DNA of 25,214 nt, from positions 1 through 25,214 of IMG/VR virus record IMGVR_UViG_3300027816_005126, one strand, 5' to 3'. The translations under genes and the position numbers were made by a program. Below the pieces are notes generated by a model. The model did no database searches. It saw nothing but the letters and a program-made list of their open reading frames with translations, and was not told where the DNA came from. The DNA comes from a virus. Within the stretch, counting starts at the first letter, position 1. The number at the start of each line of letters is the position of its first letter. This document shows, one piece after another, positions 701 to 10,691 of this stretch.

Positions 701-777
701 GGGCTTGTAGTTAAAGTGGCGATAACGCTAGCCTTGCACGCTTGAATCGAGACTTCGATTTGTCTCCGGGTCCACCA
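701..777 (+). tRNA. tRNA-Ala(TGC) with an atypical T arm
   Basis: The acceptor arm 701-707 pairs with 767-773 and keeps the G3-U70 pair that identifies alanine tRNAs. The D stem is GTTA/TAAC. The anticodon stem has a 7-base loop CTTGCAC, giving anticodon TGC. Discriminator A and an encoded CCA are present (774-777). The T arm is odd: stem GAGAC/GTCTC encloses an 8-base loop TTCGATTT, and the closing 53-61 pair is C-G rather than the near-universal G-C. One mismatch (T-T) lies in the anticodon stem. It may be functional or starting to decay. Confidence 0.75.
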
Positions 778-786
778 AATAAACCT

Positions 787-1170
787 ATGATTAAAAAACT
801 AATATCAGCAATACGTAAAAAACAAAACGATCCATCAGTAAGACCGTGGGGAAATTATAAAATTCTTCATGAAGACGATAACTGCAAAGTTAAAATAATT
901 GAAGTTAATCCAGAAAAACGCTTAAGTCTGCAATCACATGAGAAACGCGAAGAAATATGGACAATAACAGAAGGCACAGGATTAATGACACTTGGTGTAA
1001 TGAAATTCACAATGAAGGCTGGTGATAAAGTAAAAATACCGTTTGGTACCAAACACCGTATTGAAAATATTGGCACAGTACCACTTAAATTTATTGAAGT
1101 TCAGACCGGTACCTATTTTGGAGAAGATGATATTATCAGATACGAAGATGACTTTGGGAGAGTAAAATGA
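787..1170 (+). CDS. Mannose-6-phosphate isomerase, type II-like cupin
   Basis: A 127-residue single cupin that matches the C-terminal isomerase domain of bifunctional ManC/AlgA enzymes. It starts with R-P-W-G-N-Y, then has the metal-binding cupin motif around Q-S-H-E-K-R-E-E-I-W-T and T-E-G-T-G, then G-D-K-V-K-I-P-F-G-T-K-H-R-I-E-N, and ends E-V-Q-T-G-T-Y-F-G-E-D-D-I-I-R. In the family this domain interconverts fructose-6-P and mannose-6-P, feeding GDP-mannose synthesis. No guanylyltransferase domain is attached. The frame is open upstream into the tRNA-Ala gene, so I place the start at ATG 787, just after the tRNA. The stop overlaps the next gene by 4 bases. It is a plausible feeder for the GDP-sugar genes far downstream, though standalone members could have other sugar-binding roles. 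Confidence 0.8.
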   Translation: MIKKLISAIRKKQNDPSVRPWGNYKILHEDDNCKVKIIEVNPEKRLSLQSHEKREEIWTITEGTGLMTLGVMKFTMKAGDKVKIPFGTKHRIENIGTVPLKFIEVQTGTYFGEDDIIRYEDDFGRVK

Positions 1171-1373
1171 AAATTAAAGTTGATAGTATTAAAGAAAATG
1201 GTGATGGTACAGTTACTCTAGACTTTGAAGTAGATGACGAAGCAGAGGCTGCAATTGCTAAAAGTTACGGAGTAACAGTAGAAGAATTAACTGAGGAACA
1301 ACTTCAAGAATTTGTAATTAAATCATTAAATGAAGCTGCAGCAAAAGCCGAACAAGAAAACAAACAAGATTGA
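1167..1373 (+). CDS. Small acidic hypothetical protein
   Basis: A 68-residue acidic protein, with an N-terminal beta-like segment (residues 1-22, including D-G-T-V-T-L-D-F) followed by Glu/Ala-rich helices. I do not recognise a family. It starts by a 4-base ATGA overlap with the isomerase gene and is the last gene before a hairpin terminator, so it closes this transcription unit. Its size, acidity and position are typical of conserved small phage proteins. No function is assigned. Confidence 0.7.
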   Translation: MKIKVDSIKENGDGTVTLDFEVDDEAEAAIAKSYGVTVEELTEEQLQEFVIKSLNEAAAKAEQENKQD

Positions 1374-1381
1374 TTAATGTG

Positions 1382-1424
1382 GTGCGTAATGTGGTATTAA
1401 CCGTGTTACGCACTATTTATTTTT
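1382..1424 (+). terminator. Rho-independent-type terminator
   Basis: An inverted repeat GTGCGTAA (1382-1389) / TTACGCAC (1406-1413) forms an 8-bp stem with a 16-base loop, followed by a T-rich tract (1414-1424). It lies 9 bases after the stop at 1373 and ends directly at the next start codon. Confidence 0.6.
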
Positions 1425-2375
1425 ATGAAAATTATTTTTGAGAAGAAGAAGAAAGGCGACCGCTGTACACGTATTGCAAAACGTAAATATGATGTATGGC
1501 CATCTGCTTATGCTTCTGGTGCTGTTGTAAAATGTCGCCAAGGTAAAATCTGGAAAGGCTTATCAGAAGAACAATTAACAGAAGAAATATTAAATATAAT
1601 TTCAGAAGAATTAGAATTTTTCTTAGAGAAGAAAAAGAAGAAGCCAGATTTTAAAAAAGAAAAAGAAAGTAGTTTGAGCGGATGGTTTTCACGTCAAGGT
1701 GGAAAAGGAAAAAGCAAAGGCTGGGTAGATTGTAATACTTGTCGAACAGATAAAGAAACAGGTAAAAAAACTTGTAAAACATGTGGTAGACAAGAAGGTG
1801 AAAAAAGAGCCAAATATCCTGCGTGTAGACCAAAACCAAGTGATTGTGATTCATCTGGTAAAGGTGAAGAATGGGGTAAGAAATCGGAATCGTTAGAAAT
1901 TAATGATGGTTTATTGGAAGAAGATAGACAATATATAAAAAATATTGTTTTAAGTGAACTTCATAAACTTTTTGAAGAAGAGGATCCAAAAGCTGTTGCA
2001 CAACAAGCAGTTAGTAATGCCAATAATATGATCAGAGATGCTGATTCTGAAAGAAAGGCTGCAGAGGCTCAAGAGAAAATGGCAAAAGACTCGGATAATC
2101 CAGAGATAATTAATTCAGCAAAATATAAAAAATTATCTGCAATTGAATTTCAAAAAGCTGCTAGAAAAGCTCAAAAAGACGCAAAAGAGATGGCAGCAAA
2201 ACCAGAAACTGTTGCTGAAGAAAAAAGCAATTTTCAGAAAGAAATGGAAAAGAAAGGCAAAGGTTGGAAGGTTCGCTTGTTAACAAAAGGAAAACAGCCG
2301 GCCGGTTCAGCTTATCCAAATAAGGCACCAACAGATAGAGCAAAAAGTGCTCCTCCCGGTGCAGGTGGTGTTTAA
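1425..2375 (+). CDS. Lys-rich protein with a Cys-rich DUF5872-like segment
   Basis: A 316-residue, very Lys-rich protein. Residues 10-45 carry a pattern I have seen repeatedly in T4-like phages (C-T-R-I-A-K-R-K-Y-D-V-W-P-S-A-Y-A-S-G then V-V-K-C-R). Residues 85-145 carry W-V-D-C-N-T-C-R, C-K-T-C-G-R and Y-P-A-C-R-P, a Cys-rich segment resembling DUF5872 and a possible zinc site. The second half is a long Ala/Lys/Glu helix with a low-complexity tail. No catalytic motif is visible. These proteins may be packaged or structural, which is inference. No Shine-Dalgarno is seen: the ATG sits 11 bases after the terminator stem. The next gene begins one base after its stop. Confidence 0.7.
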   Translation: MKIIFEKKKKGDRCTRIAKRKYDVWPSAYASGAVVKCRQGKIWKGLSEEQLTEEILNIISEELEFFLEKKKKKPDFKKEKESSLSGWFSRQGGKGKSKGWVDCNTCRTDKETGKKTCKTCGRQEGEKRAKYPACRPKPSDCDSSGKGEEWGKKSESLEINDGLLEEDRQYIKNIVLSELHKLFEEEDPKAVAQQAVSNANNMIRDADSERKAAEAQEKMAKDSDNPEIINSAKYKKLSAIEFQKAARKAQKDAKEMAAKPETVAEEKSNFQKEMEKKGKGWKVRLLTKGKQPAGSAYPNKAPTDRAKSAPPGAGGV

Positions 2376-2376
2376 A

Positions 2377-2973
2377 ATGAATGACATGAAAAAACTATTA
2401 CAAGAATTTAAAAAAAATATGTTGCAAGAAAGAAGCGAATCAACAATTCATCAAGATGCTGTTGATGTTTTAAAATATTTTGTAACCGAGTTCCAACCAG
2501 AACCAAACACTCCTGAAGCAAAAATTATTTCTCAAATACAAGAAATAGAAAACTTTGGAACACAATTAAATAGATCTTCTGGTCTTGTAACTGGTACGCC
2601 GGAAGAAGATGTAATTGCAGGAAGAAAAATATCAAATACACATGTGCACGATTACATAGAAAATCTTTTATTTAAAATAGGTCTAGATAAGGAAAATATT
2701 TCCGGGTTTAAAGCTTTCCTAGAACAGAAAGTAGAAGAGCCAGAAGAAATTACACAAGCAAGATTAGATCTACAAAAAAAAGAAGCTGGTGAAGAAGACT
2801 CTGAAGAAGACTCTGATGAAGACGAAGAAGAAAGAATTAAAGTTCAAGCAGCAAAACAAACTGCAATTGGAAGAGCAAAAAGACAACAACCAAAATCAAC
2901 CGTAATCAGTCCAGAAGATAGCGAAATTACTCGCCGCCGTGCAGCAGCACAAGGCAATAAGACACAACGATAA
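2377..2973 (+). CDS. Acidic helical hypothetical protein
   Basis: A 198-residue protein. Residues 1-130 are helical and mixed in charge. A very acidic Glu/Asp run lies near residues 135-155, followed by a basic Arg/Lys-rich tail. This layout resembles scaffold-like or nucleic-acid-contacting phage proteins, but I recognise no family. The open frame extends upstream into the preceding gene. I chose ATG 2377, one base after the previous stop; ATG 2386 is an alternative. It is followed by a strong promoter and tRNA-Ser, so it ends its operon with the Lys-rich gene before it. Confidence 0.7.
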   Translation: MNDMKKLLQEFKKNMLQERSESTIHQDAVDVLKYFVTEFQPEPNTPEAKIISQIQEIENFGTQLNRSSGLVTGTPEEDVIAGRKISNTHVHDYIENLLFKIGLDKENISGFKAFLEQKVEEPEEITQARLDLQKKEAGEEDSEEDSDEDEEERIKVQAAKQTAIGRAKRQQPKSTVISPEDSEITRRRAAAQGNKTQR

Positions 2974-2978
2974 ACCTC

Positions 2979-3007
2979 TTTACAAACCTTCAAGTTTGGT
3001 TTATGAT
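2979..3007 (+). promoter_or_regulatory. Sigma70-type promoter for tRNA-Ser
   Basis: The -35 box TTTACA (2979-2984) and -10 box TATGAT (3002-3007) are separated by exactly 17 bases. The predicted start is near 3014, only about three bases before the tRNA-Ser 5' end. Confidence 0.7.
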
Positions 3008-3016
3008 ACTTAAAGT

Positions 3017-3101
3017 GGGCAGATAGCCAAGTGGCTTACGGCACCGGATTACTAACCCGGCATACCGAGAGGTATCGTGAGTTCGAATCTCACTCTGCCC
3101 G
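3017..3101 (+). tRNA. tRNA-Ser(ACT), type II
   Basis: The acceptor 3017-3023 pairs perfectly with 3094-3100. The discriminator G (3101) is typical of serine. A 3-bp D stem, a long variable arm (ATACC/GGTAT with a GAGA loop), and a perfect T arm GTGAG-TTCGAAT-CTCAC support type II serine identity. The anticodon loop is TTACTAA, so the anticodon (3051-3053) reads ACT where GCT is expected for AGY codons. The 31-39 pair is an A-C mismatch. CCA is not encoded. Confidence 0.85.
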
Positions 3102-3111
3102 AGGAAAAAAA

Positions 3112-3765
3112 TTAAGGCACCTGCACGTTGGTTTTTTCTGCACGTTCAATATTTTGAATGACCAAGTCCTTAACAATTTTATAATATTTAATTTTATTGT
3201 TATTATTTAAATACTTACAAGATGAAGTATCAATTATACAAAGTTCTATTCCTTGTTCAAAACAGGCGATAATTTTTTGTTTATCGTTATTTTGAATTTT
3301 ATCAAGTTTTGAATTACCATAAATTGGTTCATAATGAAATATTCCATTTAATTCAAAAGCTAATTTTAATTCAGGTATAAAAATATCTAATTCTGATTGT
3401 ATCAATTCTTTTGAATTAAAAACAAATTTTAAAGATGGAAAATCATTTCTTAATTGTTCTTCTATATACATTTCTAATTTAGAGCGTCGAATACCAAAGA
3501 CTTTATTCTTATTATTGAAAGTCGCCGCGCATGATTTGGAACAAAAATTATTTTTTGTTTTTAAAATTTGATTTTGTTTTTTAAAAAAACTAGTATTACA
3601 ATTGCGACAGTTGACTTTGGTTTTTAAATTTTGTTGATACTGCTTATAACAGTTTTTAGAACAAAATTCCAAAATCATATTTTTATTTCTTCTGCTAGCT
3701 TCATCGCTTGAATTTCTAAGAAAATTACATTTACAAACAAGACAAGTTCTGTTATACATCTTCAT
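3112..3765 (-). CDS. Homing endonuclease, EDxHD/Vsr-like, with zinc fingers
   Basis: About 217 residues on the opposite strand to its neighbours. The N-terminal half has two Cys clusters (C8/C11 with C35/C39, and C53/C56 with C75/C79) of the 'CSKxC' treble-clef style found in phage endonucleases. The C-terminal half has a Vsr/PD-(D/E)xK-like core: E98, then S-E-L-D-I-F-I-P (D127), then A-F-E-L-N-G-I-F-H (E138, H144), then N-N-D-K (D161). This matches the EDxHD homing endonucleases related to I-Bth0305I. It lies between tRNA-Ser and a small ORF, as expected for a free-standing homing gene. The frame is open to 3840 with a TTG, overlapping the facing gene's start. I prefer ATG 3765, but no ribosome site is clear for either. 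Confidence 0.75.
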   Translation of the reverse strand: MKMYNRTCLVCKCNFLRNSSDEASRRNKNMILEFCSKNCYKQYQQNLKTKVNCRNCNTSFFKKQNQILKTKNNFCSKSCAATFNNKNKVFGIRRSKLEMYIEEQLRNDFPSLKFVFNSKELIQSELDIFIPELKLAFELNGIFHYEPIYGNSKLDKIQNNDKQKIIACFEQGIELCIIDTSSCKYLNNNNKIKYYKIVKDLVIQNIERAEKTNVQVP

Positions 3766-3841
3766 AACAGTAAATAGTTCAGAAGAATTGAAATTACGAT
3801 TTTGAATCTCTGTAATTCCGTTAAATATTTTGGAGCACAAT

Positions 3842-4090
3842 ATGAACGATCTTAAAGAAGTGGTTGAACAAAAACAAGGTCAACCGTGGAAAGTCGAAAA
3901 AGTCTGTGACAGTTTTGAAACAGCGGATTCTGTAAGAAAAAATTTGCTTACTGATAGCAAAGATGGACTAAAAGCAAAAGTAAAATTTCTACCATCGACT
4001 GGTAAATTTGTAGTTAAATCACGAAAGCCAGAAGAAATTGTTGTTGAGCAGAAATCTAAAAAAAATAAAAAACAAACGCCTACTGCTTGA
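3842..4090 (+). CDS. Small basic hypothetical protein
   Basis: An 82-residue Lys-rich protein with a short beta/alpha-looking middle (P-W-K-V-E-K, S-F-E-T-A-D, K-V-K-F-L-P-S-T-G-K-F-V-V) and a Lys/Gln tail. I recognise no named family. The start at ATG 3842 is backed by a GGAG ribosome site at 3832-3835; the frame opens slightly earlier at a TTG. The stop codon overlaps the -35 box of the promoter for tRNA-Ile. The upstream homing endonuclease gene runs in the opposite direction, so its insertion may have separated this gene from its original partner. Confidence 0.7.
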   Translation: MNDLKEVVEQKQGQPWKVEKVCDSFETADSVRKNLLTDSKDGLKAKVKFLPSTGKFVVKSRKPEEIVVEQKSKKNKKQTPTA

Positions 4091-4115
4091 CGCGCTCCCC
4101 AGATCGTGTTAAGAT
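4087..4115 (+). promoter_or_regulatory. Sigma70-type extended -10 promoter for tRNA-Ile
   Basis: TTGACG (4087-4092), a 17-base spacer, and TAAGAT (4110-4115) preceded by TGT, which is an extended -10. The spacer is much richer in G+C than the surrounding DNA. The -35 overlaps the upstream stop codon. Confidence 0.8.
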
Positions 4116-4117
4116 GG

Positions 4118-4149
4118 TTCACCAGATCGGCCCCAGACGGTTTGGTGGA
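4118..4149 (+). other. Hairpin leader before tRNA-Ile
   Basis: Bases 4118-4129 pair with 4138-4149 in a continuous 12-bp stem (three of the pairs are G-U) around an 8-base loop. It ends three bases before the tRNA. The predicted transcription start (about 4122) falls inside the 5' arm, so the full stem forms only on read-through RNA. No U tract follows. A processing signal is possible. Confidence 0.45.
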
Positions 4150-4152
4150 TGT

Positions 4153-4229
4153 GCTCCCGTAACTCAGTTGGTTAGAGTGTCGCTCTTATAAGGCGAAAGT
4201 CGTTGGTTCAAATCCAACCGGGAGTACCA
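4153..4229 (+). tRNA. tRNA-Ile(TAT)
   Basis: The acceptor GCTCCCG pairs with CGGGAGT (one G-U). D stem ACTC/GAGT, anticodon stem TCGCT/GGCGA with loop CTTATAA, T arm GTTGG-TTCAAAT-CCAAC, discriminator A and encoded CCA (4227-4229) are all present. The anticodon TAT reads AUA. Most bacteria and phages use a CAT anticodon modified to lysidine for this codon, so TAT is uncommon. Confidence 0.9.
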
Positions 4230-4245
4230 AATATATATAAATAAT

Positions 4246-4572
4246 ATGAATAACAATACTTTCGAAAATCATCATTTTGATTGTGATTGTCAAAGTGAAC
4301 AACACATTTTTCGTGTTACTTCTGAAAATGCTTGGGATAGAGATCTTCCACCGGAACTTTATATCTCAATTCAGTTAAACCAGTACAGAGGCTTGTTTAA
4401 ACGCTTTGTAACAGCCGTAAAATACCTCTTTGGTTATGAATGCAAATTTGGTCATTGGGATATTGCAACAATCAAAGAGGACGATTTAAACCGTTTAATT
4501 GTATTATTACATCAACATAGAGTAAAAGTAGAAAAATTCTATCTAGAGAAAGAAAAACAAAATGCAACCTGA
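4246..4572 (+). CDS. Conserved small phage protein, function unknown
   Basis: A 108-residue protein. It opens with a His/Cys-rich segment (F-D-C-D-C near residues 11-15 and H20), then L-Y-I-S-I-Q-L-N-Q-Y and R-F-V-T-A-V-K-Y-L-F-G-Y, then G-H-W-D and a C-terminal helix. I recall this pattern, a short metal-site-like head followed by a 'QLNQY ... KYLFGY ... GHWD' core, from many tailed-phage hypothetical proteins, but no function is known to me. The Cys and His residues could bind zinc. It starts 16 bases after tRNA-Ile and overlaps the next tiny gene by 11 bases. Confidence 0.7.
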   Translation: MNNNTFENHHFDCDCQSEQHIFRVTSENAWDRDLPPELYISIQLNQYRGLFKRFVTAVKYLFGYECKFGHWDIATIKEDDLNRLIVLLHQHRVKVEKFYLEKEKQNAT

Positions 4573-4699
4573 TACTTGGGCTGGTGCCGTTAGAGAATTC
4601 TTTAGACAATTTGGTGGCCTAGGGGCCCTACTAATTGTTTGTCTGACAGTTGGTCAATGTGTTGGTTTTGTAGATATTTATCGTTTGCTAGGAAAATAA
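4562..4699 (+). CDS. 45-residue small membrane protein
   Basis: A 45-residue ORF whose ATG at 4562 overlaps the end of the preceding gene by 11 bases. After a polar N terminus with charged residues to about 15, residues 17-38 are hydrophobic (G-G-L-G-A-L-L-I-V-C-L-T-V-G...), consistent with one membrane helix and a short basic C terminus. No family is recognised. Small one-helix proteins are common in phages and can act as lysis regulators or superinfection-exclusion factors, but nothing here shows which. Tight packing and overlap support that it is a real gene. Confidence 0.55.
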   Translation: MQPDTWAGAVREFFRQFGGLGALLIVCLTVGQCVGFVDIYRLLGK

Positions 4700-4705
4700 A
4701 AGTAT

Positions 4706-4782
4706 GCCCTGTTAGCTCAGTTGGACAGAGCAAACCGTTTCTACCGGTAAGGTCGGGGATTCGAATTCCTCACAGGGCACCA
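4706..4782 (+). tRNA. tRNA-Arg(TCT)
   Basis: Perfect acceptor GCCCTGT/ACAGGGC, D stem GCTC/GAGC, anticodon loop TTTCTAC (anticodon TCT, codons AGA/AGG), T arm GGGGA-TTCGAAT-TCCTC, discriminator A and encoded CCA. The outermost anticodon-stem pair (27-43) is A-A. AGA is a frequent Arg codon in many genes of this window, which fits the usual role of phage tRNAs. Confidence 0.9.
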
Positions 4783-4815
4783 AATTAGCATTATCGAGTT
4801 CAGATCATATTTCTT

Positions 4816-4968
4816 ATGCCACATTTTATTTCAAAATTACTACGTAAATTTCTTAAGCTGCCGCACCGTATGTGTGATACTTGTTTAAATGAGTTTCAAC
4901 ATACAACCTGTAAAGGTGAATGTTTGTGTGATATTTGTTATAAAAAGAAATTTAGAGGCAAGTCTTGA
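4816..4968 (+). CDS. 50-residue Cys-rich zinc-finger-like protein
   Basis: An ORF of 50 residues with a basic N terminus. Residues 20-42 hold the pattern C-x2-C, then C-x3-C-x-C-x2-C, enough ligands for one or two zinc ions. No family is recognised. Such mini zinc proteins in phages often bind nucleic acid or host proteins, which is inference. Its stop overlaps the TTG start of the next gene (TTGA), suggesting coupled translation. It follows tRNA-Arg by 33 bases. Confidence 0.55.
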   Translation: MPHFISKLLRKFLKLPHRMCDTCLNEFQHTTCKGECLCDICYKKKFRGKS

Positions 4969-5255
4969 AAGACGACGAATACGAAAAGATATTTGAATTA
5001 TCAGAAAGAATACAAAAATGTATTTCTGATATTACTGAAGCTGTGTATTATAATTTGCACGATGAAGATCCACAATCAGTATTGTTAGTTTATTCATCAT
5101 TATTGACTGTAACTGGTTATTTTGAGTTTAAATTAAGAAATGAAAATGTCGATAATGAAGCTATAGAAATGACAAAGAGCAGTGCAGAAAAATATCTCTT
5201 GTCATTAATAAGCCAAGAACTTGGTTCGGTTCAGCAGAAAAAAGGCGATGCGTAA
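4965..5255 (+). CDS. Acidic helical hypothetical protein, TTG start
   Basis: A 96-residue, acidic, all-helical protein of unknown family. The start is a TTG at 4965 overlapping the previous stop (TTGA), with a GAGGC-like ribosome site a few bases upstream. The next ATG in frame lies too far in to keep the protein intact. It overlaps the dCMP deaminase gene by 8 bases, so it belongs to a coupled run 4816-6450. No motif that suggests function is visible. Confidence 0.6.
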   Translation: MKDDEYEKIFELSERIQKCISDITEAVYYNLHDEDPQSVLLVYSSLLTVTGYFEFKLRNENVDNEAIEMTKSSAEKYLLSLISQELGSVQQKKGDA

Positions 5256-5673
5256 ATTTAAACTATCTTGGGATGATATCTGGATGCGACTTGCAAATGA
5301 TATCGCAACCCGCTCAAATGACCCACGATTAAAAGTGGGCGCTGTTATTGTCACGGAAGATAATGAAACCGTTTTAGCTATTGGTTATAATGGCGATGAA
5401 AAAGGTGGAGATAATAAGCCAGATAGTTTAGAACCTGGCTGTTCAAATTTCATTCATGCAGAAGTTAATGCCATAGCAAAAATGAACTATAATGATCCAA
5501 GACCTAGGAAGATATATATAACTCACGCTCCTTGTCCTGTTTGCGCTAGATTAATAATTAATTCTAATATTAAAAAAGTAATTTATTGTCTACCATATCG
5601 CAGTGAAAAGGGTTTAGATCTTCTCAAGAAAAGAGGAATAGAAATACTTTCCTGTCCAGAGCAATCAATATGA
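5248..5673 (+). CDS. dCMP deaminase
   Basis: A 141-residue zinc-dependent deoxycytidylate deaminase, which converts dCMP to dUMP and so supplies dTMP synthesis for an AT-rich phage genome. The signature is complete: H70-A-E72 (first zinc ligand and proton shuttle) and P95-C96-P97-V98-C99 (two Cys ligands). An N-terminal substrate-binding region has S-N-D-P-R-L-K-V-G-A and G-Y-N-G. The size is close to that of short phage and bacterial enzymes. The frame is open nine codons upstream, but I use ATG 5248, which gives the usual N terminus (W-D-D-I-W-M-R-L-A) and an 8-base overlap with the previous gene. It overlaps the next gene by 4 bases. Confidence 0.93.
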   Translation: MRKFKLSWDDIWMRLANDIATRSNDPRLKVGAVIVTEDNETVLAIGYNGDEKGGDNKPDSLEPGCSNFIHAEVNAIAKMNYNDPRPRKIYITHAPCPVCARLIINSNIKKVIYCLPYRSEKGLDLLKKRGIEILSCPEQSI

Positions 5674-5936
5674 AATTTGAATTAACCAGCGAGCAACAAG
5701 AAAAGATTAATAAGTGGTTAAAAAAAATTGATCAAGAAGTTATAGAAGAACAAAAAAATACTATGACTTTTGATGAGTGGTATGATTTAACTTGTGGCGG
5801 TAAATATGCATATTATGGCGCTATAGGTGGTGGAATAAGATATATTTTTATTCCAACTTCAATAGGAACAGTAACAAAAGTTATACATACGTATACAAAT
5901 AAAGAATTTGATGTAACAGAATATGATACCTGGTGA
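5670..5936 (+). CDS. Hypothetical phage protein (88 aa)
   Basis: An 88-residue protein. Residues 1-30 form a charged helix, residues 33-60 are aromatic and Gly-rich (F-D-E-W-Y-D-L-T-C-G-G-K-Y, then A-I-G-G-G-I-R-Y), and the C terminus looks like beta strands. I have seen similar short phage proteins but know no function. It is coupled to the deaminase by an ATGA overlap, with the next gene starting 5 bases after its stop. Confidence 0.65.
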   Translation: MKFELTSEQQEKINKWLKKIDQEVIEEQKNTMTFDEWYDLTCGGKYAYYGAIGGGIRYIFIPTSIGTVTKVIHTYTNKEFDVTEYDTW

Positions 5937-5941
5937 AAATT

Positions 5942-6256
5942 ATGTCAAACAAAACTCAACTAGAATTTTTAATTGAAATAATTAACGATACACACGTTGG
6001 ACAAAAGCGTATTAAACTCCGTAAATATATGGAAGCAGCATTTGTACCACAACATGGTATGGAAATATTAGATAGTGGAATTATTTTTCGTGTTAAAACA
6101 GTATCATTAGCCGGCTTATCTGGCTTGATGCATATAGCTTTTCCTATTTCACAAGAAAATAAAAAACTTATTTTACGTTCAAAAGAACCAAATGATAAAT
6201 GGTTAAATGAACAGTTAGAAACCCTAAAAAAACAAGGATGGTCGGTAGTTAAATGA
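5942..6256 (+). CDS. Hypothetical protein (104 aa)
   Basis: A 104-residue mixed alpha/beta protein with no recognised family. It starts with an N-terminal helix, has a hydrophobic middle (S-L-A-G-L-S-G-L-M-H-I-A-F near residues 55-67) too short and polar to be a clear membrane span, and ends in a helix before G-W-S-V-V-K. I use ATG 5942, with a GGTGA ribosome site upstream; a GTG at 5933 would add three residues. The stop overlaps the next gene by 4 bases. Confidence 0.6.
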   Translation: MSNKTQLEFLIEIINDTHVGQKRIKLRKYMEAAFVPQHGMEILDSGIIFRVKTVSLAGLSGLMHIAFPISQENKKLILRSKEPNDKWLNEQLETLKKQGWSVVK

Positions 6257-6450
6257 AGAAGATTGATGTTGAAACATTCCTAGAAATGATTCAAGAAGAC
6301 CTAGTAGAATTTGAAGAGAATGTACATTCAGGTACATTTCATAATCGCAATGCTCATGAGTGGTTTAAATTGCTTAATGATTGGGTAGAATATGGCTTTA
6401 ATCGCCGAGCAACAGATGAGTGGCAAGAATTTGATAGTGATGAAGACTGA
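6253..6450 (+). CDS. Small acidic hypothetical protein (65 aa)
   Basis: A 65-residue acidic protein rich in Trp/Phe/Glu (E-W-F-K-L-L-N-D-W-V-E-Y-G-F in the middle, then an Asp/Glu tail). No family is recognised. It is linked to the previous gene by an ATGA overlap and is the last gene before the promoter of tRNA-Leu(CAA), so it ends the small-gene operon that includes dCMP deaminase. Confidence 0.6.
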   Translation: MKKIDVETFLEMIQEDLVEFEENVHSGTFHNRNAHEWFKLLNDWVEYGFNRRATDEWQEFDSDED

Positions 6451-6456
6451 CTGCTC

Positions 6457-6485
6457 TTGACAGATCGCCTGCCCCGTGCTAAGAT
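6457..6485 (+). promoter_or_regulatory. Consensus sigma70 extended -10 promoter for tRNA-Leu(CAA)
   Basis: A perfect -35 TTGACA (6457-6462), a 17-base G+C-rich spacer, and -10 TAAGAT (6480-6485) preceded by TGC, which is an extended -10. The tRNA begins nine bases after the -10, so the primary transcript has almost no leader. It shares the GTG(C/T)TAAGAT core with the tRNA-Ile promoter. Confidence 0.88.
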
Positions 6486-6494
6486 GGGGCATAC

Positions 6495-6581
6495 GCCGGG
6501 ATGGTGGAACTGGCAGACACGGCAGACTCAAAATCTGCTGCTAGCAATAGCATGAGGGTTCGACCCCCTCTTCCGGCACCA
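6495..6581 (+). tRNA. tRNA-Leu(CAA), type II
   Basis: Acceptor GCCGGGA/TTCCGGC, 3-bp D stem GTG/CAC with GG in the loop, anticodon stem GCAGA/TCTGC with loop CTCAAAA (anticodon CAA, codon UUG), long variable arm TGCTA/TAGCA, T arm GAGGG-TTCGACC-CCCTC, discriminator A and encoded CCA. All leucine features are present. Confidence 0.93.
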
Positions 6582-6587
6582 TAAATT

Positions 6588-6830
6588 ATGATTACAAAAG
6601 AAAAAACTGATCAAATTGTTAGCTTTATCAAACAAATGCCTGAAATTGAAGATACTTTAAAATATCTTCTTGTTAATTACTTAAAAATTTCGACTGAATT
6701 TGTTAAAATTAAAACAGAAAACTTAAACCTTAAAAAAGAAAATGACGACCTCTTGACAGAAGCTGAAGATCTTGGTATGATGGTGCGGCAGCTGCAAGAG
6801 GAGCTAGACGGACTAAAAACGATTCATTAA
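6588..6830 (+). CDS. Small coiled-coil protein (80 aa)
   Basis: An 80-residue, all-helical protein. From about residue 38 to 76 it shows heptad-like spacing of Leu/Ile/Val with Glu and Lys between, typical of a coiled coil. No family is recognised. It lies between tRNA-Leu(CAA) and tRNA-Leu(TAA) and is probably read from the strong tRNA promoter just upstream. There is no obvious strong ribosome site in the seven bases between the tRNA end and the ATG; the tRNA 3' end itself precedes the start. Confidence 0.6.
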   Translation: MITKEKTDQIVSFIKQMPEIEDTLKYLLVNYLKISTEFVKIKTENLNLKKENDDLLTEAEDLGMMVRQLQEELDGLKTIH

Positions 6831-6836
6831 AACCAG

Positions 6837-6914
6837 GGGTATGTAGTCCAACCGGTAGGAGACAGTTGACTTAAAATCAATACAGTGTGGGTTCGAATCC
6901 CACCGTACCCACCA
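6837..6914 (+). tRNA. tRNA with Leu anticodon TAA but short variable loop
   Basis: Acceptor GGGTATG/CGTACCC, D stem GTC/GAC with a 12-base loop that holds GG, anticodon stem GTTGA/TCAAT with loop CTTAAAA (anticodon TAA), T arm GTGGG-TTCGAAT-CCCAC, discriminator A and encoded CCA. Leucine tRNAs have a long variable arm; here it is only five bases (ACAGT). The molecule is otherwise well formed. Confidence 0.85.
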
Positions 6915-6917
6915 AAA

Positions 6918-7370
6918 ATGAATGAAAAAGATAAATTACAAGAAATAGTTAAAGAGAGTTTTTCATATGCACAAGTATTAAAAAAATTAGATCTTAAGCC
7001 AATAGGTGGAAATTATAGAATTTTGCAAAGAAAAATAAAACAATTTAATTTAGATACTTCGCATTTTACTGGACAAGGCCACTTAAAAGGAAAGTCACAT
7101 AGTTGGAGTAAATCTCAATCTTTAAAAGATATATTAGTAGAAAATTCCACATATCAAACTTGTAAATTAAAAAAACGATTAATAAGAGAAAAATTAATTG
7201 TAAATAAATGTTCTGAATGTGGTCTACAAGACACTTGGAATGGAAAAAAGATTGTTCTTCAACTTGATCATGTTAATGGCAACAATTCTGATAATAGATT
7301 AGAAAACTTAAGAATACTTTGTCCAAATTGTCATAGTCAAACTGATACTTACGCTGGTAGAAATAAATAA
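6918..7370 (+). CDS. HNH homing endonuclease
   Basis: A 150-residue free-standing HNH endonuclease. The N-terminal half (residues 1-60) is a DNA-binding-type segment with S-Y-A-Q-V-L, G-G-N-Y-R-I-L and S-H-F-T-G-Q-G, seen in many phage HNH proteins. The C-terminal half has the zinc pair C-S-E-C-G, then L-Q-L-D-H-V-N-G-N-N-S-D-N-R-L-E-N-L-R, then C-P-N-C-H-S-Q, which is a full HNH site with its second CxxC pair. These genes spread by cutting alleles that lack them. The frame opens upstream inside the tRNA; ATG 6918, four bases past it, is the sensible start. It is inserted between tRNA-Leu(TAA) and tRNA-Tyr. Confidence 0.9.
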   Translation: MNEKDKLQEIVKESFSYAQVLKKLDLKPIGGNYRILQRKIKQFNLDTSHFTGQGHLKGKSHSWSKSQSLKDILVENSTYQTCKLKKRLIREKLIVNKCSECGLQDTWNGKKIVLQLDHVNGNNSDNRLENLRILCPNCHSQTDTYAGRNK

Positions 7371-7374
7371 ATTT

Positions 7375-7460
7375 GGGAAGTCGGTAACGATGGCGAGTTA
7401 CATCAGACTGTAAATCTGACGGCATTGCTTTAGGGAGTTCGAATCTCTCACTTCCCACCA
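7375..7460 (+). tRNA. tRNA-Tyr(GTA)
   Basis: Perfect acceptor GGGAAGT/ACTTCCC, D stem GTAAC/GTTAC, anticodon stem TCAGA/TCTGA with loop CTGTAAA (anticodon GTA), a 13-base variable region typical of bacterial tyrosine tRNAs, T arm GGGAG-TTCGAAT-CTCTC, discriminator A and encoded CCA. Confidence 0.92.
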
Positions 7461-7506
7461 AGAGTTTAAACTTTCTCTAAAAAAGTTATTTACTAAGGAA
7501 ATAAAT

Positions 7507-7752
7507 ATGTCATCAAATCGCGCTCTTACCTATCTCAAGTCCGAAATTCGTTCACGTGTTCTAGAGAATGGTACTGTATCTGCTGCTGATGTTGTAAATG
7601 TAATGCGCCTTCATTTTGAAGGATCAGAACGTGGTGGATTTGTTACCAAAGCCTTCCGTGATCTAATTTCTGAAGGTACTCTACGCCCAACTAATCGTAC
7701 CGAACTAAATCGTAATACCCGTCATCAGGTTACTGTTTATCGCGCTCGTTGA
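7507..7752 (+). CDS. Small basic winged-helix-like protein with distinct codon use
   Basis: An 81-residue basic protein. N-terminal helix, then V-L-E-N-G-T-V-S-A-A-D-V-V, a Gly-containing turn and helix (G-G-F-V-T-K-A-F-R-D-L), and a strand-like C terminus suggest a small winged-helix fold that might bind DNA; no family is recognised. All 12 Arg codons are CGT or CGC, while AGA is common in most neighbouring genes, so it may be highly expressed or recently acquired. AAGGA is a clear ribosome site. It sits alone between tRNA-Tyr and a perfect terminator hairpin, as expected for an abundantly made protein with its own 3' end. Confidence 0.7.
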   Translation: MSSNRALTYLKSEIRSRVLENGTVSAADVVNVMRLHFEGSERGGFVTKAFRDLISEGTLRPTNRTELNRNTRHQVTVYRAR

Positions 7753-7772
7753 TTTAAATAAAATTTAAAATT

Positions 7773-7803
7773 GTACAAAACCCACTTTATGTGGGTTTTG
7801 TAC
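7773..7803 (+). terminator. Strong rho-independent terminator
   Basis: A perfect 13-bp stem (7773-7785 with 7791-7803) around loop TTTAT. The core AAAACCCAC/GTGGGTTTT is symmetric, with A and U runs on both sides, so it could stop transcription from either direction. It ends the unit of the small basic gene and lies just before tRNA-Gln. Confidence 0.85.
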
Positions 7804-7806
7804 TTA

Positions 7807-7880
7807 TGGGGAATCGTCTAACGGCAGGACAACGGATTTTGATTCCGTTTATCTAGGTTCGAATCCTAGTTCCCCAACCA
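7807..7880 (+). tRNA. tRNA-Gln(TTG)
   Basis: Acceptor TGGGGAA/TTCCCCA, D stem GTC/GAC, anticodon stem ACGGA/TCCGT with loop TTTTGAT (anticodon TTG, codon CAA), T arm CTAGG-TTCGAAT-CCTAG, discriminator A and encoded CCA. The weak first pair U1-A72 is a known glutamine identity feature. It begins three bases after the terminator stem. Confidence 0.92.
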
Positions 7881-7913: not shown

Positions 7914-8447
7914 ATGACAAACCGTAATCAAACACGTCGTGAACGCTATAATAATAAACAAAATATTTCAACTCGATTACCAATCGAAGTTTGTACTGTT
8001 AATTTTAAAGAAGAAGTTAATGTAGCATTTGTATTACGTAGTGCGGCTTGTTTTGGTGCTGCAGCCGTGAATGTTATTGGGTCAGTACCAAAAAGAAAAA
8101 CACTCGCAACACGATCCGGTACGTTACAAGATTATGTACCAATTAATCAGTTTAGTAATCCTCATGAATTTCTACAATATTGTAAAAATAACCACATTAA
8201 AGTTATTAGCGCAGAATTGGACCCAGAAGCTGTTTCAATTCATAAATATAATTTCAAGAATGATCTAACAGATTTTAAAAAGATCTGTATTGTTGTTGGT
8301 CACGAACAAATTGGAATTCCAGCAGATATATTAAATAATAGTCAAAAAATCTTTATTAATATGCCAGGAATTGGTTTTTGTTTAAATACAAGTCAAGCAG
8401 CAAATATTTTTTTATATGAAGCGACTAAACAAATTGTAGGTTTTTAA
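7914..8447 (+). CDS. SpoU/TrmH-family RNA 2'-O-methyltransferase (SPOUT)
   Basis: A 177-residue protein with the three SpoU motifs in order: motif 1 N36-V-A-F-V-L-R42-S (the Arg is catalytic in the family), motif 2 I-V-V-G-H-E-Q-I-G-I-P (127-136), and motif 3 I-N-M-P-G-I-G-F-C-L-N-T-S-Q-A-A-N-I (147-164), which form the knotted SAM site. It is near the minimal length, like TrmL and short TrmH forms, with a basic 20-residue N terminus. The family methylates ribose 2'-OH in tRNA or rRNA. Its place among phage tRNA genes suggests it modifies tRNA (position 18, 32 or 34), but the subfamily cannot be decided by eye. No strong Shine-Dalgarno is seen. Confidence 0.88.
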   Translation: MTNRNQTRRERYNNKQNISTRLPIEVCTVNFKEEVNVAFVLRSAACFGAAAVNVIGSVPKRKTLATRSGTLQDYVPINQFSNPHEFLQYCKNNHIKVISAELDPEAVSIHKYNFKNDLTDFKKICIVVGHEQIGIPADILNNSQKIFINMPGIGFCLNTSQAANIFLYEATKQIVGF

Positions 8448-8470: not shown

Positions 8471-8542
8471 GCTGCTTAAGCATAGATAGCGATGCAGAGC
8501 ACTTGTAATGCTCAGAGATTGGCGCAAATCCAATAAGCAGCT
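8471..8542 (+). tRNA. Degenerate tRNA-Thr(TGT)-like gene
   Basis: All four stems pair well: GCTGCTT/AAGCAGC, GCAT/ATGC, GAGCA/TGCTC and ATTGG/CCAAT. The anticodon loop CTTGTAA gives TGT (codon ACA). The D loop AGATAGCG lacks the GG pair, and the T loop is CGCAAAT instead of TTCAAAT, so the usual G18-U55 contact and T54 are gone, while a G19-C56 contact remains possible. The discriminator is T and no CCA is encoded. It touches the stop codon of the facing protease gene. Confidence 0.65.
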
Positions 8543-9336
8543 TATTCAATATCTAGATCAGGTATCGGTGCTGATTCTATAAATTCTATAAATCTTTTAA
8601 GATCTTTCCAGGGTACTGCAATACAGATATTTTCAAATTCACTTACACCAGCATAGGTAATACCTATTAATTCTCCGTGTTCATTGAAGATTGCAGAACC
8701 GGAACTACCGCTCTTTGTGGGTATGGAATATAGGGAAGAGTTTGAACGAATTAGCGGTGAATAAAAATCGCCAGCATAATATCCTTCAAATAAAAGCACC
8801 GCTTTTCCATCTGAGATGCCAAGCGGTGCAGCTATATTAAAAACTTTTTCTCCTCTTAGTGGAGCAACCGGTGATATTATAGTTGCCGGTTGCTCTATTT
8901 TTTTTGTCAATACAACACATATATCGTGTTTATCATCAAATGCATAAAACAACATGTTATGTATTTCATTTTTTACATCAATAATGGTTGTATCATCTTT
9001 TATGGGAAATAGTTCTTCTGGAATTGTATCTACTTTACTCTCTAAACCAACACAGAAGTGTCGCGCAGTTAAAATTTTTGTATGGTTACTACCATGTGAA
9101 AGTATGACTCCTGAAGCAACTGAAGAAAATAAAATATTTCCATTCTTATCTGAAACGTTTTTAATCAACTTAACAAAAGAATCGTAAGGAAGTACTGTCT
9201 TATTATGAGTATGAGTAATATTTATTATTGAGTCTTTAATATCACCTAAACCAAGACAATTTGTATGTGAAGTACAGTTTAATGATAAAACAGACAATAA
9301 AAGAACAGCTAGTTTTAAGATGTGTTTAGTGACCAT
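8542..9336 (-). CDS. Exported trypsin-like serine protease
   Basis: A 264-residue S1-type (trypsin/DegP-like) protease. A short basic N terminus and hydrophobic residues 7-19 ending before N-C form a signal peptide; C21 could be a lipoprotein site, but the -1 residue is Asn, so this is doubtful. The catalytic triad is visible: L-T-A-R-H93, D-K-H-D138-I-C-V-V, and S-G-S-S212-G-S-A, followed by G-E-L-I-G-I. It would act outside the cytoplasm on an unknown substrate. I use ATG 9336 because it gives the signal peptide; the open frame continues to 9414. It is on the opposite strand to its neighbours and divergent from phoH, which suggests an acquired 'moron'-type gene. Confidence 0.85.
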   Translation of the reverse strand: MVTKHILKLAVLLLSVLSLNCTSHTNCLGLGDIKDSIINITHTHNKTVLPYDSFVKLIKNVSDKNGNILFSSVASGVILSHGSNHTKILTARHFCVGLESKVDTIPEELFPIKDDTTIIDVKNEIHNMLFYAFDDKHDICVVLTKKIEQPATIISPVAPLRGEKVFNIAAPLGISDGKAVLLFEGYYAGDFYSPLIRSNSSLYSIPTKSGSSGSAIFNEHGELIGITYAGVSEFENICIAVPWKDLKRFIEFIESAPIPDLDIE

Positions 9337-9371
9337 AAAATAACTAGTGTTCGAAAACCTAAAGGTACAAT

Positions 9372-10691
9372 ATGAAAAAAATATATGTTCTAGATACAAG
9401 TGTTCTCTTAACAAGTGCCAATTCTATCTTTTCTTTTGGAAAAGACGATATCGTACTCCCTCTAAAAGTACTAGAAGAAGTCGATAAACATAAAAACAGA
9501 CAAGATTCAGTAGGCCAAAATGCGCGTAACTCTATTAAAATTCTTGATACACTAAGAGAGTCTGGTTCCCTTCAAGAAGGAGTTAGAATTCAGAAAGGTA
9601 AAGGAGTTTTAAAATCTGCTGCCCTTGATGCATCACATTTTCCAAAAGATCTAGATTTATCGGTACCAGATCATGTAATTATTGCAACTGCATACGCTGT
9701 ATCTAAAGCACATTTAGATAAAAAGGTCGTCGTTGTTTCACGTGATGTTAATATGCGTGTTATTTGCGATGCAATTGGTTTGCAAAGCGAGTCATATGAA
9801 GCCAGTCAGGTTATTTCTGATTCAAGTGAATTGTACAGTGGTATATGTGAATTGGTTGTTGATGATGAGTTTATTGAGAGACTATATAGCGGTGAAGGAT
9901 TGACTTTGGAAGAAAAACAAGCTGATAAGCTATTTCCAAATCAGTTTATTACACTTATATCAAATAAAAATGCTAATAAAACCGCTCTAGCTAGATTCTT
10001 AGGAAAAGAATTGCCCTTGAAAAAGGTACCAGACTTTAAAGGTAGAAACAAAGCTGTATTTGGTGTTGAATCCAGAAATCGTGAACAGAGTTTTGCTTTT
10101 GACTTATTAATGGATCCAAGTGTACCAATTGTTACATTGGTTGGTAAGGCTGGTTCCGGCAAGACTCTATCAGCAGTCGCAGCAGGATTGGCTCAGTTGC
10201 TTGAAAAGCAGACGTATACTCGTCTGATAGTCTCAAGACCAGTTCAGCCATTAGGACGCGATATAGGCTTCCTGCCGGGTACTCTCGAAGAGAAGATGAT
10301 GCCTTGGTTGATACCAATTCAGGATAACTTGCAGTTCCTTCTCGGGAATGATAAAGCAACGTTGCAAGATTATATGACAAGAGGTGTTATCGAGATTGAA
10401 GCCCTTACCTATATTCGTGGTCGTTCAATTGCAAAAGCTTTTATGATTATCGATGAGGCACAAAATCTTACTGCTCACGAGTTGAAAACAATTGTTACTC
10501 GTGTTGGTGAAGGTACAAAGATTGTATTAACTGGTGATATTGAACAGATTGATAACATATATGTTAATGATACAAGCAATGGACTTGCATATGCTGTAGA
10601 AAAGTTTAAAACAGCATCTTTAGCTGGCCACGTCAGTCTGCAAAAGGGTGAACGTAGTGCTGTCGCAAGTTTGGCAGCAAAAGTACTTTGA
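9372..10691 (+). CDS. phoH: PhoH-family ATPase with N-terminal PIN domain
   Basis: A 439-residue PIN-PhoH (PhoH2/YlaK-type) protein. The PIN nuclease domain spans about residues 1-140, with acidic residues D8, E35/E36, D100 and D125 in the right motifs. The PhoH ATPase domain spans about 230-435, with Walker A G-K-A-G-S-G-K-T (258-265), a V-S-R-P-V-Q-P-L-G-R-D-I-G segment and Walker B F-M-I-I-D361-E-A-Q. Family members are RNA-unwinding and RNA-cutting enzymes. PhoH genes are very common in marine phages, but a link to phosphate starvation is not shown by this sequence. AAAGGT is a good ribosome site. It is followed by a small acidic gene that often travels with it in T4-like phages. Confidence 0.93.
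   Translation: MKKIYVLDTSVLLTSANSIFSFGKDDIVLPLKVLEEVDKHKNRQDSVGQNARNSIKILDTLRESGSLQEGVRIQKGKGVLKSAALDASHFPKDLDLSVPDHVIIATAYAVSKAHLDKKVVVVSRDVNMRVICDAIGLQSESYEASQVISDSSELYSGICELVVDDEFIERLYSGEGLTLEEKQADKLFPNQFITLISNKNANKTALARFLGKELPLKKVPDFKGRNKAVFGVESRNREQSFAFDLLMDPSVPIVTLVGKAGSGKTLSAVAAGLAQLLEKQTYTRLIVSRPVQPLGRDIGFLPGTLEEKMMPWLIPIQDNLQFLLGNDKATLQDYMTRGVIEIEALTYIRGRSIAKAFMIIDEAQNLTAHELKTIVTRVGEGTKIVLTGDIEQIDNIYVNDTSNGLAYAVEKFKTASLAGHVSLQKGERSAVASLAAKVL

Follow-up and report, generated by a model that had tools for sequence, protein, structure and literature searches.

In TrmH, Arg8 and Arg11 (TrmH residues are numbered here as in the T. thermophilus protein) serve in tRNA binding during the cycle and in AdoHcy release, and substitution of Ser150 nearly abolishes activity (PMC5372735). 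TrmL, in turn, has been described as lacking an N-terminal extension of the TrmH kind (PMC3763551). The TrmH-like protein VC_0803 of V. cholerae makes no Gm18 (PMC12588516); therefore, TrmH likeness alone is a weak guide to the methylated site. The modification of phage tRNAs is attributed to host enzymes (review, PMC13191261), and we found no earlier description of phage SpoU or TrmH genes in the open-access literature. The original prediction for the locus analyzed here called such genes unusual in phages, and they are indeed rare among isolate phages (INPHARED).

The DNA under study is a 25,214-nucleotide stretch of an IMG/VR virus record (hereafter, the window). It belongs to a large T4-like virus of bacteria that carries its own RNA ribose methyltransferase. 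The open reading frame at 7914-8447 matches essentially the whole of the Pfam domain SpoU_methylase (PF00588) at 2.5e-21 and 76.7 bits, against a curated cut-off of 29.7 bits. The AlphaFold2 model of its 177-aa product is confident (pLDDT 86.8, pTM 0.82), and Foldseek matches this knotted model to solved SpoU structures with a probability of 1.00. A SPOUT methyltransferase had been predicted at this position, and profile and model agree in assigning the product to the SpoU/SPOUT 2'-O-methyltransferase superfamily; a SpoU fold with its catalytic residues is evident from sequence and model with near certainty. The gene and its recognizable parts are as follows:

7914..8447, plus strand: SpoU-class SPOUT ribose 2'-O-methyltransferase, ATG start, 177 aa (Pfam, AlphaFold2, Foldseek, dN/dS)
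7923..7967, plus strand: N-terminal arginine-rich helix, residues 4-18, with invariant T7, R8, R11, Y12 and K15 (helix 8-18 in the AlphaFold2 model)
8019..8057, plus strand: SpoU motif 1, NVAFVLRSAACFG, with N36 equivalent to TrmH Asn35 and R42 to the catalytic Arg41
8292..8321, plus strand: SpoU motif 2, VVGHEQIGIP, with E131 equivalent to TrmH Glu124
8361..8420, plus strand: SpoU motif 3, MPGIGFCLNTSQAANIFLYE, with invariant Cys156 where TrmH has Ser150, and N158 equivalent to Asn152

Throughout the phage family, the residue equivalent to Ser150 is Cys. The change of this essential Ser could mean that the SPOUT fold has decayed or moonlights and no longer acts as a methyltransferase. However, the other four catalytic residues (N36, R42, E131 and N158) and the motifs are invariant across 12 diverse aligned family members, and the gene is under purifying selection, with a dN/dS of about 0.1 (0.09-0.13 against three relatives), which makes such a loss of activity extremely unlikely. 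Nor is the motif-3 Ser universal, as Vibrio and Pseudoalteromonas SpoU homologues also carry Cys.

The gene was originally placed inside a tRNA cluster. ARAGORN finds eight tRNAs in the window, from 701 to 7880, and these are listed below together with the features around the SpoU gene:

701..777, plus strand: tRNA-Ala(UGC) (ARAGORN)
3016..3102, plus strand: tRNA-Ser(ACU) (ARAGORN)
4153..4229, plus strand: tRNA-Ile(UAU) (ARAGORN)
4706..4782, plus strand: tRNA-Arg(UCU) (ARAGORN)
6495..6581, plus strand: tRNA-Leu(CAA) (ARAGORN)
6837..6914, plus strand: tRNA-Leu(UAA), 78 nt, without a long variable arm (ARAGORN)
7375..7460, plus strand: tRNA-Tyr(GUA) (ARAGORN)
7773..7803, plus strand: 13-bp hairpin just 5' of tRNA-Gln; hairpins also in L004 and L007
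7807..7880, plus strand: tRNA-Gln(UUG), direct 5' neighbor of the SpoU gene, 33 bp gap (ARAGORN)
8471..8541, plus strand: 71-nt non-canonical cloverleaf resembling tRNA-Thr(UGU), without CCA, starting 24 bp past the SpoU stop codon
9372..10691, plus strand: PIN-PhoH protein, bounding the conserved SpoU slot on its 3' side

By ARAGORN alone, the SpoU gene forms the 3' edge of the array, and neither ARAGORN nor the Rfam tRNA model RF00005 reports anything downstream of it, both missing 8471-8541. This segment folds as a cloverleaf with all 21 pairs intact and CUUGUAA as its anticodon loop, and its copy in the relative L003 (6553-6623) keeps 21 of 21 pairs, with five two-sided compensatory and two one-sided changes. 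Because this ninth, Thr(UGU)-like tRNA is present, and because a canonical tRNA-Thr(UGU) occupies the same position in L004-L006, the SpoU gene lies inside the array, as had been proposed. The D-loop of the Thr-like cloverleaf, AGNNAGCG, has no G18G19 and its T-loop reads CGCAANT; the D-loop GG is present in all eight ARAGORN tRNAs. Since its D-loop lacks GG, this neighbor cannot be a G18 substrate.

Several further features of the array were observed. Leucine charging of the 78-nt tRNA(UAA) is putative, read from its anticodon; short versions resembling it occur in L006 and L007, and the L004 version is normal, at 87 nt. The tRNA-Ser(ACU), whose A at the wobble position is unusual in bacteria, is conserved in L003, L004, L114, L126 and L127. 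An HNH endonuclease gene (6885-7370, plus strand) lies between tRNA-Leu(UAA) and tRNA-Tyr, and a reading frame (3112-3840, minus strand) with homologues at shifted positions in L003 and L004 lies between tRNA-Ser and tRNA-Ile; both are possibly mobile elements. The hairpin preceding the tRNA upstream of SpoU (7773-7803 in the window) recurs at about 5883-5906 in L004 and about 4078-4099 in L007, and its stem sequences differ across the three phages, so it is the structure and not the sequence that is kept. Finally, a trypsin-like protease gene (8542-9414, minus strand) lies between SpoU and PhoH, overlaps the start of the PhoH reading frame by 43 bp, and is retained in L003, L004 and L007 (56-59% identity).

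Alignment-guided scans of viral contigs recovered the SpoU family in 28 IMG/VR contigs of uncultured viruses, at 78-84% identity among close relatives and 45-58% across the broader set, with TRxxRY at the N-terminus and the motif-3 form MPGxGxCLNT as signatures. Two long contigs with the family gene encode a T4-type Gp23 capsid protein; for the Gp23 contig of the window's own species, the nearest matches are Microcystis phage Mel-JY01, Rhodothermus phage RM378 and Flavobacterium phage immuto. Among isolate phages, no close copy was found (INPHARED tblastn gave only very distant matches and megablast none), and PHROGs holds no family matching the SpoU protein. In the search for a cellular donor, one scan of cellular genome contigs returned only Actinobacterial proteins (33-45% identity in a stretch of about 50 residues), each of which carries the motif-3 Ser, and 150 genomes of that phylum yielded no closer cellular relative. 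On sequence comparison, the family is placed as a virus-only clade outside every characterized SpoU subfamily.

Profile, curated-family and fold comparisons favor TrmH over TrmL or TrmJ. Against the curated models, the window protein scores 57.8 bits for TrmH, 44.5 for RlmB, 34.5 for TrmL and 16.1 for archaeal TrmJ, all far below the respective cut-offs (227, 160.15, 190.6 and 350 bits; those for TrmH and TrmL are equivalog cut-offs). The TrmH, TrmL and RlmB models match 12 of 12 aligned members, with the best E-value for TrmH. One family member, L064, scores higher with RlmB than with TrmH. In the PDB, the family profile reaches 63 bits with E. coli TrmH, 58 with A. aeolicus TrmH, 49 with human TARBP1, 49 with T. 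thermophilus TrmH and 43 with the best TrmL, and no TrmJ passes. Fold searching ranks TrmH structures first to third and TARBP1 fourth, with the first TrmL-type structure at rank 26 and the first TrmJ at rank 31. Moreover, some 20 residues with conserved arginines extend the phage protein at its N-terminus, so it is more than a SPOUT domain, and in the family profile alignment its invariant R8 and R11 align residue for residue with Arg8 and Arg11 of T. thermophilus TrmH. TrmJ is the weakest match (7-10 bits with the phage profile), and methylation at N32 is a very unlikely outcome.

Nevertheless, the phage enzyme is TrmH-like without being a TrmH: (i) Cys stands in place of Ser; (ii) the protein ends after the knot helix and lacks the C-terminal extension whose Arg168 and Arg176 act in initial tRNA binding, the equivalents of Lys32 and His34 also being lost; (iii) the score is low; and (iv) it forms a separate branch. 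Of the two alternatives named beside TrmL in the original prediction, TrmH therefore stood as the best match but not as the family to which the protein belongs, and TrmJ did not stand.

The phylogenetic placement that had been suggested as a check put the protein in none of the three candidate families. In a careful tree, the phage family is its own clade (support 98/97), and its sister (97/93) consists of uncharacterized cellular Pseudoalteromonas/Vibrio GCMN proteins together with phage WXIN; in motif 3 of the cellular sister pair, too, a Cys precedes M/L-N. Approximately unbiased (AU) tests speak against joining the phage clade to TrmH (p 0.03) or TrmJ (p 0.03) and gave p 0.057 for rRNA types and 0.09 for TrmL; the deep branches are weak. 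One rival reading is a new specificity, with the Cys-type clade, and perhaps its weak sister among cellular proteins, acting on a different tRNA position or on some other RNA and possibly blocking a host defense that cuts tRNAs. The separate clade, the Cys-bearing sister, the invariant Cys, the altered RNA-binding residues and the accessory character of the gene, whose slot is filled elsewhere by an unrelated SpoU, all fit such a change. The sister relation, however, involves long branches and is absent from a quick tree, and a T4-type RNA ligase was unmatched in 18 records, in a search that lacked a positive control and is uninformative. We consider this reading unlikely.

A second reading is that the enzyme 2'-O-methylates rRNA and thereby changes the host's ribosomes, for example, to favor phage translation or to resist a ribosome-targeting factor, and that its tRNA neighborhood is incidental. 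Among curated families, RlmB comes second overall and first for L064, and a contig of 100 kb (G203) has the gene with no tRNA detected. The clear grouping with 23S rRNA methyltransferases that had been named as evidence against the prediction was not obtained, and a grouping with rRNA-type enzymes is not clearly rejected either (AU p 0.057). Yet the 177-aa protein has no N-terminal L30e-like substrate domain as found in RlmB-type enzymes, TrmH is ahead in fold and profile searches, and the gene lies close to tRNAs, making an rRNA target rather improbable.

The SpoU gene lies near tRNAs beyond chance. A tRNA lies within 16-600 bp of the gene in 11 of 15 contigs, some of which have this neighbor as their sole detected tRNA. 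Random placement, counting the whole contig as available and thus speaking to location and not to function, gave combined p values of 3e-7 over all contigs and about 5e-5 over nine lineages. tRNAs were found in 13 of 14 gene-bearing records and 20 of 37 others (Fisher p 0.01), although many of these 51 records are fragments and absences are soft. After correction for relatedness, the association kept the expected direction with too few pairs and a median p of 0.5, and this underpowered result, like G203 and like G182, where the nearest tRNA is 41 kb from the gene, counts against a tRNA substrate.

The original prediction favored a TrmL-like enzyme acting on the wobble ribose (N34) of tRNA-Leu(CAA) and tRNA-Leu(UAA). 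Both tRNAs are encoded in the window, as stated, and in most close relatives, Leu-UAA being the direct 3' neighbor in L064/L112, L109, L126 and L127; the phage protein is short, and a clade with TrmL survives the AU test (p 0.09). However, TrmL scores lie well below those of TrmH, and the helix is of TrmH type. Leu-CAA/UAA is linked to SpoU in the window's branch and undetected in several others, all contigs being fragments: none was detected with the gene in the 95 kb of G013, the 100 kb of G203, the 93 kb of G206 or the 100 kb of G009. G013 and G206 have a single tRNA each, Thr and Asn, respectively. Apart from L065, the Leu-UAA carriers all fall on one branch of the SpoU phylogeny and so represent few independent events, and the window's own Leu-UAA has no long arm. 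As far as fragmentary contigs can tell, a strict need for phage Leu tRNAs is not supported. The TrmL assignment was rejected for its lower scores, the N-terminal extension and the lack of a consistent Leu tRNA pairing in these fragmentary contigs, and a wobble methyltransferase is decidedly improbable.

We therefore prefer, at a rough probability of 0.45, a TrmH-like tRNA ribose methyltransferase that probably acts on the D-loop (G18). The enzyme would be SAM-dependent and of TrmH-like build, with the N-terminal arginine helix and the knotted SpoU domain, presumably as a dimer. If it follows established SpoU chemistry, SAM would sit in the knot of the dimer and Arg42 would act as general base, deprotonating the ribose 2'-OH before transfer of the methyl group. 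Because of the gene position and the relatives, the substrate is probably tRNA, phage-made and possibly also the host's, modified at a ribose in the tRNA body. By its TrmH likeness, G18 in the D-loop would be the likeliest site, although as a specific assignment it is tentative and falls somewhat short of even odds. The points against G18 include the invariant Cys, the missing C-terminal extension and Lys32, His34, Arg168 and Arg176 equivalents, the AU test against a clade with TrmH (p 0.03), the RlmB preference of L064, the window's 3' neighbor tRNA-Thr, which has no G18, and the precedent of VC_0803. Methylation may steady or protect the tRNA pool on which the phage depends late in infection, and it could possibly shield tRNAs from tRNA nucleases; any benefit to the phage, including an anti-defense role, is one that we infer.

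In most relatives, SpoU sits just upstream of a block of PIN-PhoH, a small protein, a metallopeptidase, PD-(D/E)XK and a glycosyltransferase, with no PhoH detected near SpoU in L057/L060 and L065. The tRNAs flanking this slot vary (Gln/Thr, Ile/Thr, Met/Thr, Thr alone, Leu-UAA or Ser). The SpoU of the slot is an accessory gene. Of 80 loci fetched through the glycosyltransferase, six (L118, L124, L151, L161, L162 and L174) have upstream of PhoH a different SpoU with a Ser-bearing motif 3 of the QYGSVRSMNVG type. This Ser-type group has 100% support, includes the 484-kb huge phage LR756508 and scores 24-45 bits with the family profile. Two unrelated SpoU lineages thus fill one slot upstream of PhoH in related phages. 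At its boldest, this would mean that the virus-only Cys-type SpoU has a new RNA target and that T4-like phages keep re-acquiring unrelated ribose methyltransferases at one tRNA-adjacent locus as the mark shields tRNAs from a tRNA-targeting host defense, a proposal that we regard as improbable in this full form. Either way, a family of phages with a ribose methyltransferase of their own at the tRNA locus, and with two unrelated lineages in one slot, offers a concrete means of testing whether phages edit tRNA modification and whether such editing bears on tRNA-attacking defenses, and the Ser-to-Cys change probes the role of the motif-3 residue in SpoU catalysis.

Compared with known systems, the phage protein finds its best sequence and fold match in TrmH (E. 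coli 7edc, T. thermophilus 1v2x and A. aeolicus 1zjr), sharing the SpoU knot, the catalytic Asn/Arg/Glu/Asn and the Arg8/Arg11 helix, but it is only about 24% identical, has Cys at Ser150 and lacks the C-terminal extension. With TrmL (YibK; tRNA Cm34/Um34), it shares the fold, a similar length, the absence of a large extra domain and the presence nearby of the known Leu substrates, whereas TrmL is a bare SPOUT domain, the profile scores are low and the fragmentary contigs show no consistent Leu tRNA pairing. RlmB/TsnR-type rRNA 2'-O-methyltransferases have the same catalytic domain but add an N-terminal substrate-binding domain and score lower in most comparisons. Among phage proteins, the TrmH-family protein of Mycobacterium phage WXIN (WPH57748.1) likewise carries a SpoU annotation and comes from an isolate, but is distant (22 bits) and has no tRNA within 8 kb, and the Ser-type phage SpoU is of the same enzyme class in the same PhoH-upstream slot of related T4-like phages but is a separate lineage with Ser in motif 3. 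We found no phage ribose methyltransferase in the open-access papers searched. Phage tRNAs described as evading tRNA-targeting defenses (PMC10264068, PMC11555353) provide a similar setting, in which changes to tRNAs could help the phage, but they act through tRNA sequence or supply.
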